This document shows, one piece after another, positions 5,943 through 39,622 of a stretch of 43,769 nucleotides of DNA. Made by a program: the position numbers and the translations under genes. Source of the stretch: a virus. The first letter of the stretch is position 1. Each line of letters opens with the position of its first letter. The notes beneath the pieces are model-generated. The model did not search any database. It was not told the origin of the DNA and was given only the letters and a program-made list of their open reading frames with translations. The stretch covers positions 1-43,769 of the IMG/VR virus record IMGVR_UViG_3300046694_000231. One strand, written 5' to 3'.

Positions 5943-6210
5943 TGGTGGTCACCTGTACTTTCAATTCAGTACCCCCAGCCAGGTAGGCCGATACGGAAGA
6001 GCCGGCGTTCAATGCCAGCTTGAGGACGGTGCCGCCGGCTTTGTAAACCGGCAGCGACTTCGGCACGTTCAACCGAGAGGCCACGATGGTTCCGGAGTGG
6101 TTGGTCACGTACTGGTCGTAGCCGTCGCCGGCCCGCACGAAGTATATGGCATCCGCCTCCAGCGTGCCCGGCAGCGCGGCCACGAACTTATGGATTTTGA
6201 GCTCTGCCAT
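5935..6210 (-). CDS. Small tail protein with fibre-docking-like N-terminus
   Basis: The protein has 91 residues from the ATG at 6208-6210. The first 45 residues (FVAALPGTLEADAIYFVRAG and YVTNHSG) repeat the pattern of the next gene upstream (SLPGTLQPDSFYYLLNGD, SYLTNAAG). The two therefore share an N-terminal module, probably one that docks to the baseplate or to another fibre subunit. The rest is a short strand-rich segment. Longer in-frame extensions lie inside the upstream gene and are not supported. Confidence 0.6.
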   Translation of the reverse strand: MAELKIHKFVAALPGTLEADAIYFVRAGDGYDQYVTNHSGTIVASRLNVPKSLPVYKAGGTVLKLALNAGSSVSAYLAGGTELKVQVTTNG

Positions 6211-6214
6211 GGGG

Positions 6215-6781
6215 CTACCAGTTCGTGGTGTTCCATTCCGCCGGGATGGCGGTGCCGTTGAAGCGCACCAGGCCGCCCGCTTCGCTGAACTTGTCCAGGG
6301 TTGCCTTGTTGGCGTGCGAGTGGCTGGCAGATACGGCCGCGTCGATCTGCGTCGGCGTCGATACCGGCTTGCCCGTGATCGCATCCCAGGTCAGTTCGAT
6401 ATCCATCGACTCGTATTCAGCCACCTTCAGCCAGCTGCTGGTGGCCGGGTTCCAGGCATAAAGCGCGGCGCCAGCCTCGACGGTTGGGTCGCCGGTGGCG
6501 TCCTGCACCAGGACAAACACAGCCTGGGTCAGGTCATCCTCAAGGGCATCCCGGGCGGCGATATCGGCGGCGAACAGCACCGGGGCTCCAGAGCTTGGCA
6601 AGCTGCTCAGCGCGGCAGTGATCAGGGCGTTGATCATCGCGCTGTTGCCCAGAGACTTCGCCTCACCGGCCGCGTTCGTCAGGTACGACTCGGCGTAGTC
6701 GCCATTGAGCAAGTAGTAGAACGAGTCGGGCTGCAGCGTGCCGGGCAGCGAAGTGACTTTGAAAAATTGAATCTGTGCCAT
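6215..6781 (-). CDS. Tail fibre-like protein
   Basis: The protein has 188 residues. An N-terminal module shared with 5935-6210 is followed by a helical region (MINALITAALSSLPSSG), a segment common in phage and phage-tail proteins (ALYAWNPATSSWLKVAE), a WDAITGKP element, and a SHSHANKATLDKFSE stretch often seen in tail-fibre proteins. This composition supports an adhesin/fibre role but no specific ligand. It is tightly packed in the fibre cluster. Confidence 0.7.
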   Translation of the reverse strand: MAQIQFFKVTSLPGTLQPDSFYYLLNGDYAESYLTNAAGEAKSLGNSAMINALITAALSSLPSSGAPVLFAADIAARDALEDDLTQAVFVLVQDATGDPTVEAGAALYAWNPATSSWLKVAEYESMDIELTWDAITGKPVSTPTQIDAAVSASHSHANKATLDKFSEAGGLVRFNGTAIPAEWNTTNW

Positions 6782-33439: not shown

Positions 33440-33616
33440 ATGCTGATTCTCACCCGCCGAGTAGGCGAAACCCTGCAGATCGGCGACGACATCACCGCAA
33501 CGGTGATGGAAGTGAACGGCAACCAGGTGCGCATAGGCATCGCGGCGCCAAAGGACGTGAAGGTCATGCGGCCTGAAGCGAAGTTGAAGCAGCCCAAGCT
33601 GGCCAGCGCCTGCTGA
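33440..33616 (+). CDS. csrA: CsrA/RsmA-like translational regulator
   Basis: The protein has 58 residues, short enough to be missed by length filters. [18 protein letters not shown], then [17 protein letters not shown] is plain CsrA. The RNA-contact residues Leu4, Arg6, Arg7 and Arg44 are kept. From residue 45 the usual EEIYQRI helix is replaced by a proline-containing basic tail ([14 protein letters not shown]), so the dimer's outer helix is probably altered. CsrA homodimers bind GGA motifs in mRNA leaders and change translation or stability. A phage copy could retune host or phage messages at early times. It has an AAGGAGAAGG ribosome site. Confidence 0.93.
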
Positions 33617-34670: not shown

Positions 34671-34879
34671 ACCTGATCGATCAGCTCCACACCCTGCTAC
34701 TCGCCCGGCGCCGCTCTGCACAAAAGCGCCAGCTCCCTCGCACCCAGGTGTACATCAAAGGTGTTGGCCGCTACGAAGTGAAGGACATGGATACCGGCCG
34801 GGTTCTTGGCGAGCGGCCCACCTACACCGAAGCGCGCACCCTTGCCGACAGCATGGAGCGCGGGGAGCTCTGCGCATGA
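34667..34879 (+). CDS. Small basic early protein
   Basis: The protein has 70 residues from the ATG overlapping the previous stop. A basic helix (HTLLLARRRSAQKRQLPR) is followed by a strand-turn-strand (VYIKGVGRYEVKDMDTGRVL) and a helix. It may bind nucleic acid, judged by charge only. The stop overlaps the next start by ATGA, so four genes in a row are translationally coupled. Confidence 0.65.
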   Translation: MNLIDQLHTLLLARRRSAQKRQLPRTQVYIKGVGRYEVKDMDTGRVLGERPTYTEARTLADSMERGELCA

Positions 34880-35397
34880 TCGGCCGCAATGACCACCTGC
34901 TCAAAGCCCCGATATCCGCAATGCTGAATGACGCCATGGCCCAGTACCTCGCTGCTGGCGGCACCGTAGAAAACGTACCGACCCGCATCGGCGCACCGAT
35001 GCCGACCTGCTTCAACAATCACGCCCAGGTGATCCGGCCGCCAACGGAACGCATTGCCGCGGGCCGGGTTGCCTCGGACCGCCGCAAGGACCAAATCGAA
35101 AAGGCGCGGGCGGCGGCGGAAACGATGAGTCTGGTGGCGGCATCCAGGGCCCTGGGCATCAGCAGGGATTCTCTGCGGAGGATGGCGGCCGCCGGCGGCT
35201 TCAAGTTCCAGCCGCGCGACTTCTACATCGACCGCACCAACGATCCGGCCGACGTCGAACGCATCAACGCCAGCAAGGGCTTGGGGCTGACACGTAACCA
35301 GGTGATGAAGGCCCTCGGCATCTCCTACGAACGCTTCCACCGGCTGCTAAAGGAAAACAGCATCGACTTTCCCACGAAGCAGCCTCGCCCAAGATGA
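34876..35397 (+). CDS. Protein with two helix-turn-helix-like segments
   Basis: The protein has 173 residues. Two helix-turn-helix patterns are visible: MSLVAASRALGISRDSLRRM (about 85-104) and LTRNQVMKALGISYERFHRL (about 136-155). A paired layout like this is expected of a DNA-binding protein that contacts two sites or an extended one. The N-terminus (PISAMLNDAMAQYLAAGG) is helical. It could be an early regulator. No named family recognised. Confidence 0.7.
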   Translation: MIGRNDHLLKAPISAMLNDAMAQYLAAGGTVENVPTRIGAPMPTCFNNHAQVIRPPTERIAAGRVASDRRKDQIEKARAAAETMSLVAASRALGISRDSLRRMAAAGGFKFQPRDFYIDRTNDPADVERINASKGLGLTRNQVMKALGISYERFHRLLKENSIDFPTKQPRPR

Positions 35398-36222: not shown

Positions 36223-37350
36223 ATGACACCCTCCCACCAGATACGGGTTGGCCACTGCCTGGAGCTGCTGCAGGCAATGCCAAGCGAGTCCGTGCAGTGC
36301 TGCGTGACCTCCCCGCCCTACTACGGCCTGCGCGACTACAACGTCGAAGGACAGATCGGCCTGGAGGAAACGCCGGCGGAATTCATCGCCCGCCTCGTCG
36401 AGGTGTTCCGCGAAGTGCGGCGAGTACTCCGCAAGGACGGTACCGCCTGGGTGAACATGGGCGACAGCTATTCAAGCCGGCCGAATGGTCCTGTGGGCGG
36501 CGGTGGCCACCAAGGCCCTGCACCCCATGTTGCGGTTCGCACTGCCAACGCGCGGCGGTCCGGGCATATCCCGGCAGGCCTGAAACATAAGGACCTGATG
36601 GGCATGCCTTGGCGTCTCGCCTTCGCGCTGCAGGACGATGGTTGGTATCTCCGACAGGACATCATCTGGCACAAGCCGAATCCGATGCCTGAGTCGACGC
36701 GCGATCGCTGCACAAAGGCGCACGAGTATCTGTTCCTGCTCAGCAAGTCGCGCCGATACCACTGCGACATGAACCAGATCCGCGAGCCTGCAATCTGGGG
36801 TTCTACCCCGACTGGCGTTGGCTTCGGGCACGGATTCGACGAAGAAACGAAGCCGCGCGCGGTACGTCCAGCCGGTTGGGCAGACAGCGGAAAGAAGGAC
36901 GCCGCCAGCTGGGCGAGTGCCGAGCGCCAGGGCCGTGGAAGCAAGCGCAACAGCTTTGCCAGAGAAACCAAGCAAACCGCTGGCGAGCACGGCCAAACCG
37001 CGCAGCACCGGCCTTGCCGCCCGGACGTTGACTACAGCATGACCCGGAACAAGCGCAGCGTGTGGACGGTACCAACCCACAGTTTCAAGGGCGCCCACTT
37101 CGCCACCTTCCCGCCCGACCTGATCAGGCCCTGCATTCTCGCCGGCGCGCCGCGCGGAGGCCTTGTGCTTGATCCGTTCGGTGGCGCCGGTACCACCGGC
37201 CTGGTCGCCATGCAGGAAGGCCGGTGCTCGCTTCTGCTCGAGCTCAACCCCGAATACGCCGCGCTGGCCCAGGCCAGGTTGAACACAGCCTGGATAGATG
37301 GTGCCGCGCAGATGGACATCCTTCTCGACTCCAAGGAATCAGCCGCATGA
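36223..37350 (+). CDS. Orphan DNA methyltransferase, N4-cytosine type
   Basis: The protein has 375 residues. Catalytic motif IV is TSPPYY (Ser30-Pro-Pro-Tyr33) near the N-terminus and the SAM-binding motif I is DPFGGAGTTG (317-326) near the C-terminus, the order of beta-class enzymes. SPPY favours N4-cytosine over N6-adenine methylation. The middle (about 75-300) should hold the target-recognition domain. No restriction gene is nearby. It may shield phage DNA from host restriction. The ribosome site is GGAG. The stop overlaps the next gene by four bases. Confidence 0.9.
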   Translation: MTPSHQIRVGHCLELLQAMPSESVQCCVTSPPYYGLRDYNVEGQIGLEETPAEFIARLVEVFREVRRVLRKDGTAWVNMGDSYSSRPNGPVGGGGHQGPAPHVAVRTANARRSGHIPAGLKHKDLMGMPWRLAFALQDDGWYLRQDIIWHKPNPMPESTRDRCTKAHEYLFLLSKSRRYHCDMNQIREPAIWGSTPTGVGFGHGFDEETKPRAVRPAGWADSGKKDAASWASAERQGRGSKRNSFARETKQTAGEHGQTAQHRPCRPDVDYSMTRNKRSVWTVPTHSFKGAHFATFPPDLIRPCILAGAPRGGLVLDPFGGAGTTGLVAMQEGRCSLLLELNPEYAALAQARLNTAWIDGAAQMDILLDSKESAA

Positions 37351-38126
37351 CGACCAAACCACGAATCGTCTGCCAGTTCAGCTGCGGCGCCGCATCGGCG
37401 GTGGCCACCATGCTTGCGGTGGCCGAATACGGATCAACGCACGACGTGCAAATCGTGAATGCATTCCTGGCGAACGAGCACGCCGATAACCGCCGCTTCC
37501 TAGAAGACTGTCAGGATTGGTTTGGGCGGCCCATCACCGTCTTGGCCGACGAAAAATACGGCGCCGATATCACTCAGGTTTTTCGCCGCGAGCGATACAT
37601 GAAGGGCCAGCATGGCGCCCCGTGTTCCAAGCTGTTGAAGCGCCGACTTCTGGACACTTGGAAGCAACCCGGCGACGTGATGGTCTTCGGATACACAGTT
37701 GAAGAGGTTGATCGTCTGGATGACTTCCGCCAACGCAATCCCGACCGCCCAGTGATCGCGCCGCTCATTGAGCGCAGCTTAGGAAAAGAGGATTGCAAGG
37801 CCATGATCCTGCGCGCAGGTATCGAGCTGCCTTTCATTTATCGAATGGGGTATCACAACGCCAACTGCATTGGCTGCGTGAAGGGCGGTGAAGGCTACTG
37901 GCGGGCCGTTCGTGAAGACTTTCCCGAACAGTTCGAAGAGCGGTGCAAGGTTCAAGATGAGCTTGGGGAAGGGTCGTGGTTCCTGCGCTATCGGTCAGGG
38001 CCGAAGAGCGGGCAGCGCTTCCCACTCCGTGATTTGCCCGAGGGTGAGGCGCGCCGAAACGAGGCGCTGCCCTCCTGCTCATTCTTCTGTGAGATGGCCG
38101 AAGCCGACATCATCGCTGTGCAATAA
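37347..38126 (+). CDS. PP-loop (PAPS-reductase-like) protein, four-cysteine type
   Basis: The protein has 259 residues from the ATG overlapping the methyltransferase stop. The ATP-binding PP-loop is FSCGAAS (residues 11-17), a variant of SGGxDS. Cys92 (HGAPCSKLLKRR), Cys173 and Cys176 (NCIGCVKGG) and two more near 243-247 (PSCSFFCEM) could hold an iron-sulfur cluster, as in DndC and some PAPS reductases and tRNA thiolases. The usual role of this fold is to adenylate a substrate before sulfur or nitrogen transfer. Coupling to a DNA methyltransferase suggests a nucleic-acid-modification step. Its substrate is unknown. Confidence 0.85.
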   Translation: MTTKPRIVCQFSCGAASAVATMLAVAEYGSTHDVQIVNAFLANEHADNRRFLEDCQDWFGRPITVLADEKYGADITQVFRRERYMKGQHGAPCSKLLKRRLLDTWKQPGDVMVFGYTVEEVDRLDDFRQRNPDRPVIAPLIERSLGKEDCKAMILRAGIELPFIYRMGYHNANCIGCVKGGEGYWRAVREDFPEQFEERCKVQDELGEGSWFLRYRSGPKSGQRFPLRDLPEGEARRNEALPSCSFFCEMAEADIIAVQ

Positions 38127-38179: not shown

Positions 38180-38644
38180 CTACTCAAAGAATACGTCGTT
38201 TGCATCGTAGCCGTTCATGATGGAGTGGGATTCGCTCGGGCAGTTAGAGTGCCCTACCAATCCTTTCCAGAAGTCATCGCCAAACCACTCCAGCAAACGG
38301 AAATATCGGCAGCAGTGGATGAGCTCCATCCGGTCCCAGGAATACTCACCACCACTTCCTCGAACGTCGTAATGATCTTCCAATTCATAAAACGTGATGG
38401 TCTTGTTCTCAAGATTCAACGAGTCCAGAAACTGCGCAAGTGAATCGATTTTTTCTTCTCGAATCGCAAAGCAATGCTCGTACGGGCGATGCCATTCAGC
38501 ACCGTTCGAACCAACAGGAAAAAGATCGTGGGCCCAGGCGTATGCATAAGCAGGCGTGAAGCTCCTAGTTGCACTTTCATCAGTAAATCGAGAAAGAATT
38601 AAAAATTTCTGCTGGTTGTAGAGCATCTGGTCTGTGCTGGGCAT
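38180..38644 (-). CDS. Moron: minus-strand protein of unknown function
   Basis: The protein has 154 residues from MPSTDQMLYNQQKFLILSRF, with a strong AAGGAG ribosome site; longer frames lack one. It is acidic, without membrane segments, with several Trp, Tyr and His residues (EWHRPYEHCFAIREEKIDSL, RYFRLLEWFGDDFWKGLVGH). The gene is visibly more AT-rich than its neighbours and runs against the pL operon, both signs of recent gain as an independently expressed moron. I do not recognise it. Confidence 0.75.
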   Translation of the reverse strand: MPSTDQMLYNQQKFLILSRFTDESATRSFTPAYAYAWAHDLFPVGSNGAEWHRPYEHCFAIREEKIDSLAQFLDSLNLENKTITFYELEDHYDVRGSGGEYSWDRMELIHCCRYFRLLEWFGDDFWKGLVGHSNCPSESHSIMNGYDANDVFFE

Positions 38645-38732
38645 TTCTGACTCTCCTTGTACCGGCTCCATGCCGGGCGCCATAACCAATACCCCATTAC
38701 CCACTGTCACGCCACCCTGGCGAGGTATCCCC

Positions 38733-39305
38733 ATGTCAGACAATCAGCCCAACCCGGTAAAGGTTGAAAAATCGCTGGCCACCAAGGTGGTCATCACCGG
38801 GGCGCCATCCCTCGACCCCATCACTGTCTTTATCGAGGACTTCGAGCCGGGCAAAGGGAAAATCACGATCAGCATCTACGGCCAAAGCTGGACGTCGTAC
38901 TGGGGCGGAATGAGCGGCCAGGACGTAGCCACGTTCATCAACTGGTGCAACGCCGACTACCTGGCAGGATGCCTCGCGCCGATGATGAACAGCAGAAAGT
39001 TCGATGCAGAAGTGCTCGCCGCGAAAGCGAAGAAAAAGATCATCGAAAGGCGACGCGGCCGGTGTCTGGATTTCGACTCTCTGGAGAAAGAACAGGCACG
39101 GGAGCTCTTCGACGGGGCCGACCACTTTGTTGGCCATGACACCCCCTACACCCTGGACGACGACACCATGTCGGCAATCTACGGGGATGACTGGCGCTAC
39201 TACCTCAGCTTCGACAACGCACCCAATCCCGAATACGACTACCTCTGCCGCGTCATAAAGGCAGTGCAGTCGGCATTGAAAAAACCAGAGGCTGCAGCAG
39301 CATGA
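38733..39305 (+). CDS. Early phage protein, unknown
   Basis: The protein has 190 residues from the ATG at 38733 with GAGG upstream. A beta-rich N-terminal half (TKVVITGAPSLDPITVFIED, then GKITISIYGQSWTSYWGGM) is followed by a helical C-terminal half with acidic and basic stretches. The GGMSGQDVATFINWC and GDDWRYYLSFDNAP segments suggest a compact fold common in Pseudomonas phages. Function not known. The stop overlaps the next start (ATGA). Confidence 0.75.
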   Translation: MSDNQPNPVKVEKSLATKVVITGAPSLDPITVFIEDFEPGKGKITISIYGQSWTSYWGGMSGQDVATFINWCNADYLAGCLAPMMNSRKFDAEVLAAKAKKKIIERRRGRCLDFDSLEKEQARELFDGADHFVGHDTPYTLDDDTMSAIYGDDWRYYLSFDNAPNPEYDYLCRVIKAVQSALKKPEAAAA

Positions 39306-39622
39306 AGCGCATCTACCTCAGCGGCCCTATGACCGGCCTGCCCGACGAAAACTACCCAGCCTTCAACGCCGAAGCCGCCCGTCTACGTGCCTTGGGCTAC
39401 GACGTGGTGAACCCTGCCGAGAACCCGCCGCAAGCATCCTGGGTTGAGTACATGCGCCAGGACATCCCGCAGCTGCTCACCTGCGACACCCTGGCCCTGC
39501 TCCCGGCCTGGCACAACTCCAAGGGTGCCAAGCTTGAGCACCACATTGCCGCCCAGCTCGGCATCCTCAAGGTAAGTGTCCACCAGATACAAGAACCAGC
39601 CATACAGGCGGTGCCGGCATGA
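39302..39622 (+). CDS. DUF4406 protein (nucleoside deoxyribosyltransferase-like)
   Basis: The protein has 106 residues. MKRIYLSGPMTGLPDENYPA, GYDVVNPAE, QDIPQLLTCDTLALLPAWHN and SKGAKLEHHIAAQLG form the DUF4406 pattern, related to nucleoside 2-deoxyribosyltransferases (SGPM phosphate loop, central Asp, SxGxxxE). Phage versions are thought to act on nucleotides or NAD-like compounds, but no substrate is proven. It is part of a run of coupled genes with ATGA overlaps. Confidence 0.88.
   Translation: MKRIYLSGPMTGLPDENYPAFNAEAARLRALGYDVVNPAENPPQASWVEYMRQDIPQLLTCDTLALLPAWHNSKGAKLEHHIAAQLGILKVSVHQIQEPAIQAVPA

Follow-up and report, generated by a model that had tools for sequence, protein, structure and literature searches.

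The second of two overlapping genes in a temperate tailed phage, located at 37347..38126 (+), encodes a putative PptA/SspD-like PP-loop sulfur-transfer protein of 259 aa (phrog_424, 1e-48). We propose, with a probability of about one half and inferring chemistry, substrate and benefit, that this protein is a stand-alone SspD-like sulfur-transfer enzyme which is fed by the host IscS and sulfurates DNA, and that its gene is part of a loose DNA-protection island.

The phage and its host

The window is the whole stretch of DNA that was analysed, 43,769 bases in length, and corresponds to positions 1 to 43,769 of the IMG/VR record IMGVR_UViG_3300046694_000231. It contains terminase, portal, capsid, tape-measure, CI repressor, replication and integrase genes. 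Together these genes identify the record as a temperate tailed phage. Its host is probably Pseudomonas, since the nearest relatives of the PP-loop protein in named genomes (GTDB collection) are mostly from Pseudomonas and, of a 20-kb query covering the head region, 15% aligned at 76% with Pseudomonas phage PotUPM1.

The early region of the phage encodes a CsrA-like regulator of 58 aa at 33440-33616 (+; phrog_9500, 4e-22). The gene at 34876-35397 (+) shows a short PADLOC mad1 match (3.1e-6 across 32 residues), which is probably explained by a helix-turn-helix common to both proteins rather than by a role in defence. Convergent to the PP-loop gene lies an ORF of 187 aa at 38180-38743 (−), with a G+C content of 49.6% compared with 59.9% for the window. 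The PHROG and PADLOC scans gave no match for this ORF, and it is possibly a recently acquired accessory gene. A nucleoside 2-deoxyribosyltransferase-like protein is encoded at 39302-39622 (+; phrog_355, 6.6e-37), approximately 1.2 kb 3′ of the PP-loop gene.

The overlapping methyltransferase gene

The first of the two overlapping genes, at 36223..37350 (+), encodes an orphan beta-class DNA methyltransferase of 375 aa. Its product matches PF01555 N6_N4_Mtase (E=2.8e-45), phrog_67 (2.7e-75) and PADLOC MTase_II (7.6e-103). Motif IV (TSPPY, residues 29-33; 36307..36321, +) precedes motif I (DPFGGAGT, residues 317-324; 37171..37194, +), and this order together with the PF01555 match places the enzyme in the beta class. 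Motif IV ahead of motif I, in the SPPY form, points to a beta-class N4-cytosine enzyme. The target base is thus probably N4 of cytosine, in line with the N4-cytosine type assigned in the initial annotation, although some of the profile matches are adenine enzymes such as CcrM. Methyltransferases of this kind are common in phages, with matches in 259 phage records and 250 IMG/VR stretches.

The stop codon of the methyltransferase gene and the start codon of the PP-loop gene share the ATGA at 37347..37350 (+), an overlap that had already been reported for this pair and is confirmed here. By direct reading, a ribosome-site-like AAGGA (37333..37337, +) stands 9 bases 5′ of the PP-loop ATG. Both genes are real, since each has homologues in several hundred contigs from phages. 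The PADLOC scan found no dnd or ssp partners and no nucleases among the 10 ORFs of the right arm; neither an sspB/sspC operon around the PP-loop gene nor dndD/dndE partners were detected among these ORFs. The earlier statement that no dnd or restriction genes are near therefore holds for this set of ORFs.

The PP-loop protein and its phage family

By sequence, the PP-loop protein adds a member to phrog_424, a phage family that is large, known and still emerging. It has no Pfam match and no convincing match in NCBIfam. At least 595 relatives are found among IMG/VR contigs and 122 in the GTDB collection (84,980 species genomes). The closest relative in a phage record is encoded at 5965-6765 of Pseudomonas phage vB_Pae_U5 (PP003917.1, locus L002) and is 75% identical. 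Vibrio phage 168E36-1 carries a relative at 33% identity. Annotations in the family vary: the vB_Pae_U5 protein (WZB35042.1) is labelled "integrase", which is a misannotation, and relatives in mycobacteriophages carry the labels "ribonucleotide reductase" or "tRNA-methyltransferase".

Counted by eye, the protein contains nine cysteines (C13, 55, 93, 150, 174, 177, 200, 244 and 248), which agrees with the four or more noted before. Conservation was assessed in an alignment of 65 sequences, consisting of 64 hand-picked loci and the window, from which the partial or disrupted loci L120, L121 and L129 were excluded. The PP-loop itself reads S12-C-G-A-A-S17 (37380..37397, +). The initial annotation had recorded this SCGAAS loop correctly and regarded it as a changed one. 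This second part does not stand: judged from the alignment, SCGAAS is the norm of the family and not peculiar to the window gene, because S12, G14 and S17 are invariant in all 65 sequences. Cys93 (37623..37625, +) and the pair Cys174-x-x-Cys177 (37866..37877, +) are invariant in 65/65 as well, and so is K98. The C-terminal pair Cys244-x3-Cys248 (38076..38090, +) is kept in 64/65, the one remaining row having a gap at both positions, while C150 and C13 are each kept in 58. The conserved residues of the phrog_424/PptA family, namely the S-x-G-x-x-S loop, C93, the CxxC and the C-terminal C-x3-C, are present in the window protein.

The nearest solved relative is chain C, "PptA", of the PDB entry 21fy (E=1.4e-58, 38% identity over the full length). 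The profile of the 65 sequences finds 21fy at 4e-100 and all other PDB entries at no better than 0.47. This PptA comes from Vibrio phage vB_VhaP_VH-5, one of whose proteins is 100% identical to it across the 206 aa compared. Our guess is that "Ppt" stands for phage phosphorothioation. A literature search, in which subscription journals were thinly covered, turned up no publication dealing with the PptA of this phage. The sequence of E. coli IscS is present in the 21fy entry as well, and we infer that the entry represents a PptA-IscS complex. By analogy with this one relative, the window protein may bind IscS.

Deposition of PptA with IscS would also agree with two readings other than DNA sulfuration. 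The PP-loop protein could be a non-enzymatic IscS binder, which hijacks or blocks the host sulfur flow during infection, and the loss of the Gly-Lys-Asp of SGGKDS from its loop fits this idea. However, the invariant residues S12, G14, S17, C93, K98, C174 and C177 resemble an active site under strong selection, and we regard this explanation as unlikely. Alternatively, the protein could act like other PP-loop iron-sulfur thiolases and transfer sulfur from IscS to RNA, such as the tRNA of the phage or of its host. The iron-sulfur tRNA thiolases NcsA and TtuA have the same fold (Z about 10). Similarity to the TtcA profile is nevertheless absent (0.05%) while SspD is a clear match, and the gene is associated with DNA methyltransferases; RNA thiolation is therefore also an unlikely function.

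Assignment to a PP-loop branch

In the PADLOC scan the window protein matches SspD at 7e-7, and all 65 family members match SspD, the best at 6.5e-18. Comparison of the family with SspD by hhalign gave a probability of 99.4% (E=3.4e-20, 232 columns, 16% identity). In the same run CysH reached 13%, and DndC, TtcA, QueC and CysD remained at or below 0.2% (DndC 0.2%), with 9-13 sequences in each comparison family. The positive controls of this run joined DndC with SspD at 99.2% and CysD with CysH at 96.5%. The earlier view of the protein as one of the sulfur-transfer type, akin to the phosphorothioation enzymes, is thus supported, with SspD and not DndC as the relative.

Cys93 aligns with the cysteine of the SspD RWC motif and Cys174/Cys177 with the cysteines of SGCxFC, and the C-terminus of SspD has a C-x2-C. 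The nine SspD sequences compared carry an SGGKDS loop, whereas the window protein has SCGAAS, so that the canonical loop is not present. Since Cys93, the CxxC and the C-terminal pair align, yet SspD keeps SGGKDS, the protein is classed from these alignments as SspD-like and not as an SspD.

Most annotations of the family point to a PAPS reductase for sulfate assimilation. The name of phrog_424 says so, APS/PAPS reductases are the best folds in the PDB, and PF01507 is matched by 39/65 members (best 5.5e-10). The AlphaFold2 model of the protein (mean pLDDT 93.9) retrieved APS/PAPS reductases with Z of 12.3 and below, along with further PP-loop enzymes, among which were iron-sulfur thiolases. The window protein itself matches no Pfam or NCBIfam family of this kind (PF01507 or CysH-type, E<=1), and the CysH profile reaches only the 13% given above. 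ECGLH is the C-terminal catalytic motif of PAPS reductases. By direct reading, the C-terminus of the window protein, SCSFFCEMAEADIIAVQ, lacks ECGLH and has a cysteine pair instead. A role in sulfate assimilation is accordingly most improbable.

Genomic neighbourhood of the PP-loop gene

A search for the pair in other phages, which the initial annotation had suggested, did not reveal a conserved unit. A methyltransferase of the window type (>=60 bits) is near the PP-loop gene in 13/225 PP-loop loci, and a PP-loop gene is near the methyltransferase in 5/80 methyltransferase loci, as counted within the DNA stretch available for each locus. Two of the 13 paired loci, L076 and L095, have the identical 4-base overlap. 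No annotated methyltransferase lies inside 8 kb of pptA in phage VH-5. That the two genes form a fixed unit is not supported, because most homologues of each occur without the other.

Methyltransferases as such are over-represented beside the PP-loop gene. Across the 225 loci, methyltransferases of two unrelated classes were counted 32 times inside 500 bp (219 kb) compared with 21 times beyond 1.5 kb (2,232 kb), the count for C5-methyltransferases being built from four seed ORFs. After thinning to 74 loci at 70% identity, 6 methyltransferases remained near (71 kb) and 2 far (706 kb). The binomial P values for these counts correct for shared ancestry through this identity filter and treat accessory genes as if they did not tend to cluster. 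From 140 representatives with mechanical gene calls, 116 neighbours upstream and 131 downstream were compared with PHROG, which showed no common partner; the commonest named families among them were methyltransferases, with 4-5 members each. In a search for a fixed partner, mechanical clustering of neighbours yielded mostly antisense and shadow ORFs.

The two genes could still constitute one system, in which the methyltransferase provides the choice of target or the precursor for an unusual modification of base or backbone. The ATGA overlap, its recurrence in L076 and L095 and the enrichment of methyltransferases speak for this. The 212/225 PP-loop loci without this methyltransferase type in the available DNA stretch and the 75/80 methyltransferase loci without the PP-loop gene speak against it, as does the enrichment of not one but two unrelated classes of methyltransferase, and we find such a system quite improbable. 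Of the original idea of a coupled pair, the association with methyltransferases, of two classes, survives, and the conserved two-part system does not. We read the results as a DNA-protection neighbourhood, a loose island, to which general clustering of accessory genes may contribute.

Relation to host phosphorothioation systems

SspD was found in 3/25 genomes with a relative of the PP-loop protein and in 9/244 genomes of the order sample, and DndC above the cut-off in 2/25 and 13/244, respectively; the order sample includes one of the 25 relative-bearing genomes. These numbers are too few to claim an enrichment of host SspD or DndC alongside the PP-loop gene. SspD and DndC occur in different genomes, and 20/25 relative-bearing genomes contain neither. 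The PP-loop protein does not depend on the Ssp or Dnd systems, because 22/25 of these genomes have no SspD match and 23/25 no DndC match.

Proposed function

In the DNA-sulfuration model that we favour, host IscS would hand persulfide sulfur to the PP-loop protein. Cys93, Cys174/Cys177 and the C-terminal cysteine pair would carry or activate this sulfur, the cysteine site probably holding an iron-sulfur cluster. The S-x-G-x-x-S loop would hold the nucleotide phosphate; the use of ATP is only putative, because the canonical SGGKDS found in SspD is missing from it. DNA would then receive the sulfur, in the simplest case as a phosphorothioate-like modification of the phage's own genome, and this mark may help the phage to withstand the restriction systems of the host, among them those that depend on phosphorothioate. 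The overlapping methyltransferase would add an independent methyl mark. The two genes would have translation and purpose, i.e. DNA protection, in common and not a catalytic cycle.

Two further points count against this model. Ssp modification requires the partners SspB and SspC, and no Ssp partners were seen among the 10 right-arm ORFs. Furthermore, IscS also supplies tRNA thiolases. More tentatively, and with some doubt, we consider a one-gene route of phage DNA sulfuration, in which a PptA-type enzyme with a non-canonical loop and host IscS, without any Dnd or Ssp partner, would set a sulfur mark beside the methyl mark, so that the phage would appear as "self" to both phosphorothioate-sensing and classical restriction. 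Such a one-protein route would be new. The PP-loop family is widespread and usually labelled as sulfate-assimilation metabolism; if IscS-fed DNA sulfuration is true, many "auxiliary metabolic" genes of phages would be DNA-protection genes, and phosphorothioation would not require a multi-protein apparatus such as Dnd or Ssp.

Comparison with known systems

SspD shares with the window protein a full-length profile match and the cysteine sites. It differs in its SGGKDS loop and is remote, at 16% identity, and no sspB, sspC or sspE partners of the window gene were seen among the right-arm ORFs scanned. DndC, with its cysteine-rich sulfur chemistry, belongs to the same superfamily; it is much longer and shows no profile similarity to the PP-loop protein. 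CysH-type APS/PAPS reductases have the overall fold in common, but differ in their weak profile score, their loop and their C-terminal cysteines. PptA of phage VH-5 is of the same family and shares the S-C-G-A-x-S loop and the conserved cysteines. Its gene, however, is found in a T7-like phage, surrounded by genes for replication and for the head, whereas the window gene overlaps a methyltransferase gene in a temperate phage.

In the literature, SspD is stated to be the equivalent of DndC (PMC10853773), and further study of phage PAPS reductase homologues is called for (PMC11437467). Vibriophage PAPS reductases are described as countering Dnd defence (Piel et al. 2022, via PMC10945359), and these proteins are possibly of the same family as the window protein; we count this report in favour of the proposed DNA sulfuration. 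For the phages of PMC10945359 itself, the paper indicates that the PAPS reductase gene seems to have no anti-Dnd effect. The phiLM21-like prophages of Sinorhizobium contain a PADLOC "SspD" together with type II methyltransferases, and the authors leave function open (PMC12429752). Like these prophages, the phage of the window combines a PADLOC match to SspD with one to MTase_II.
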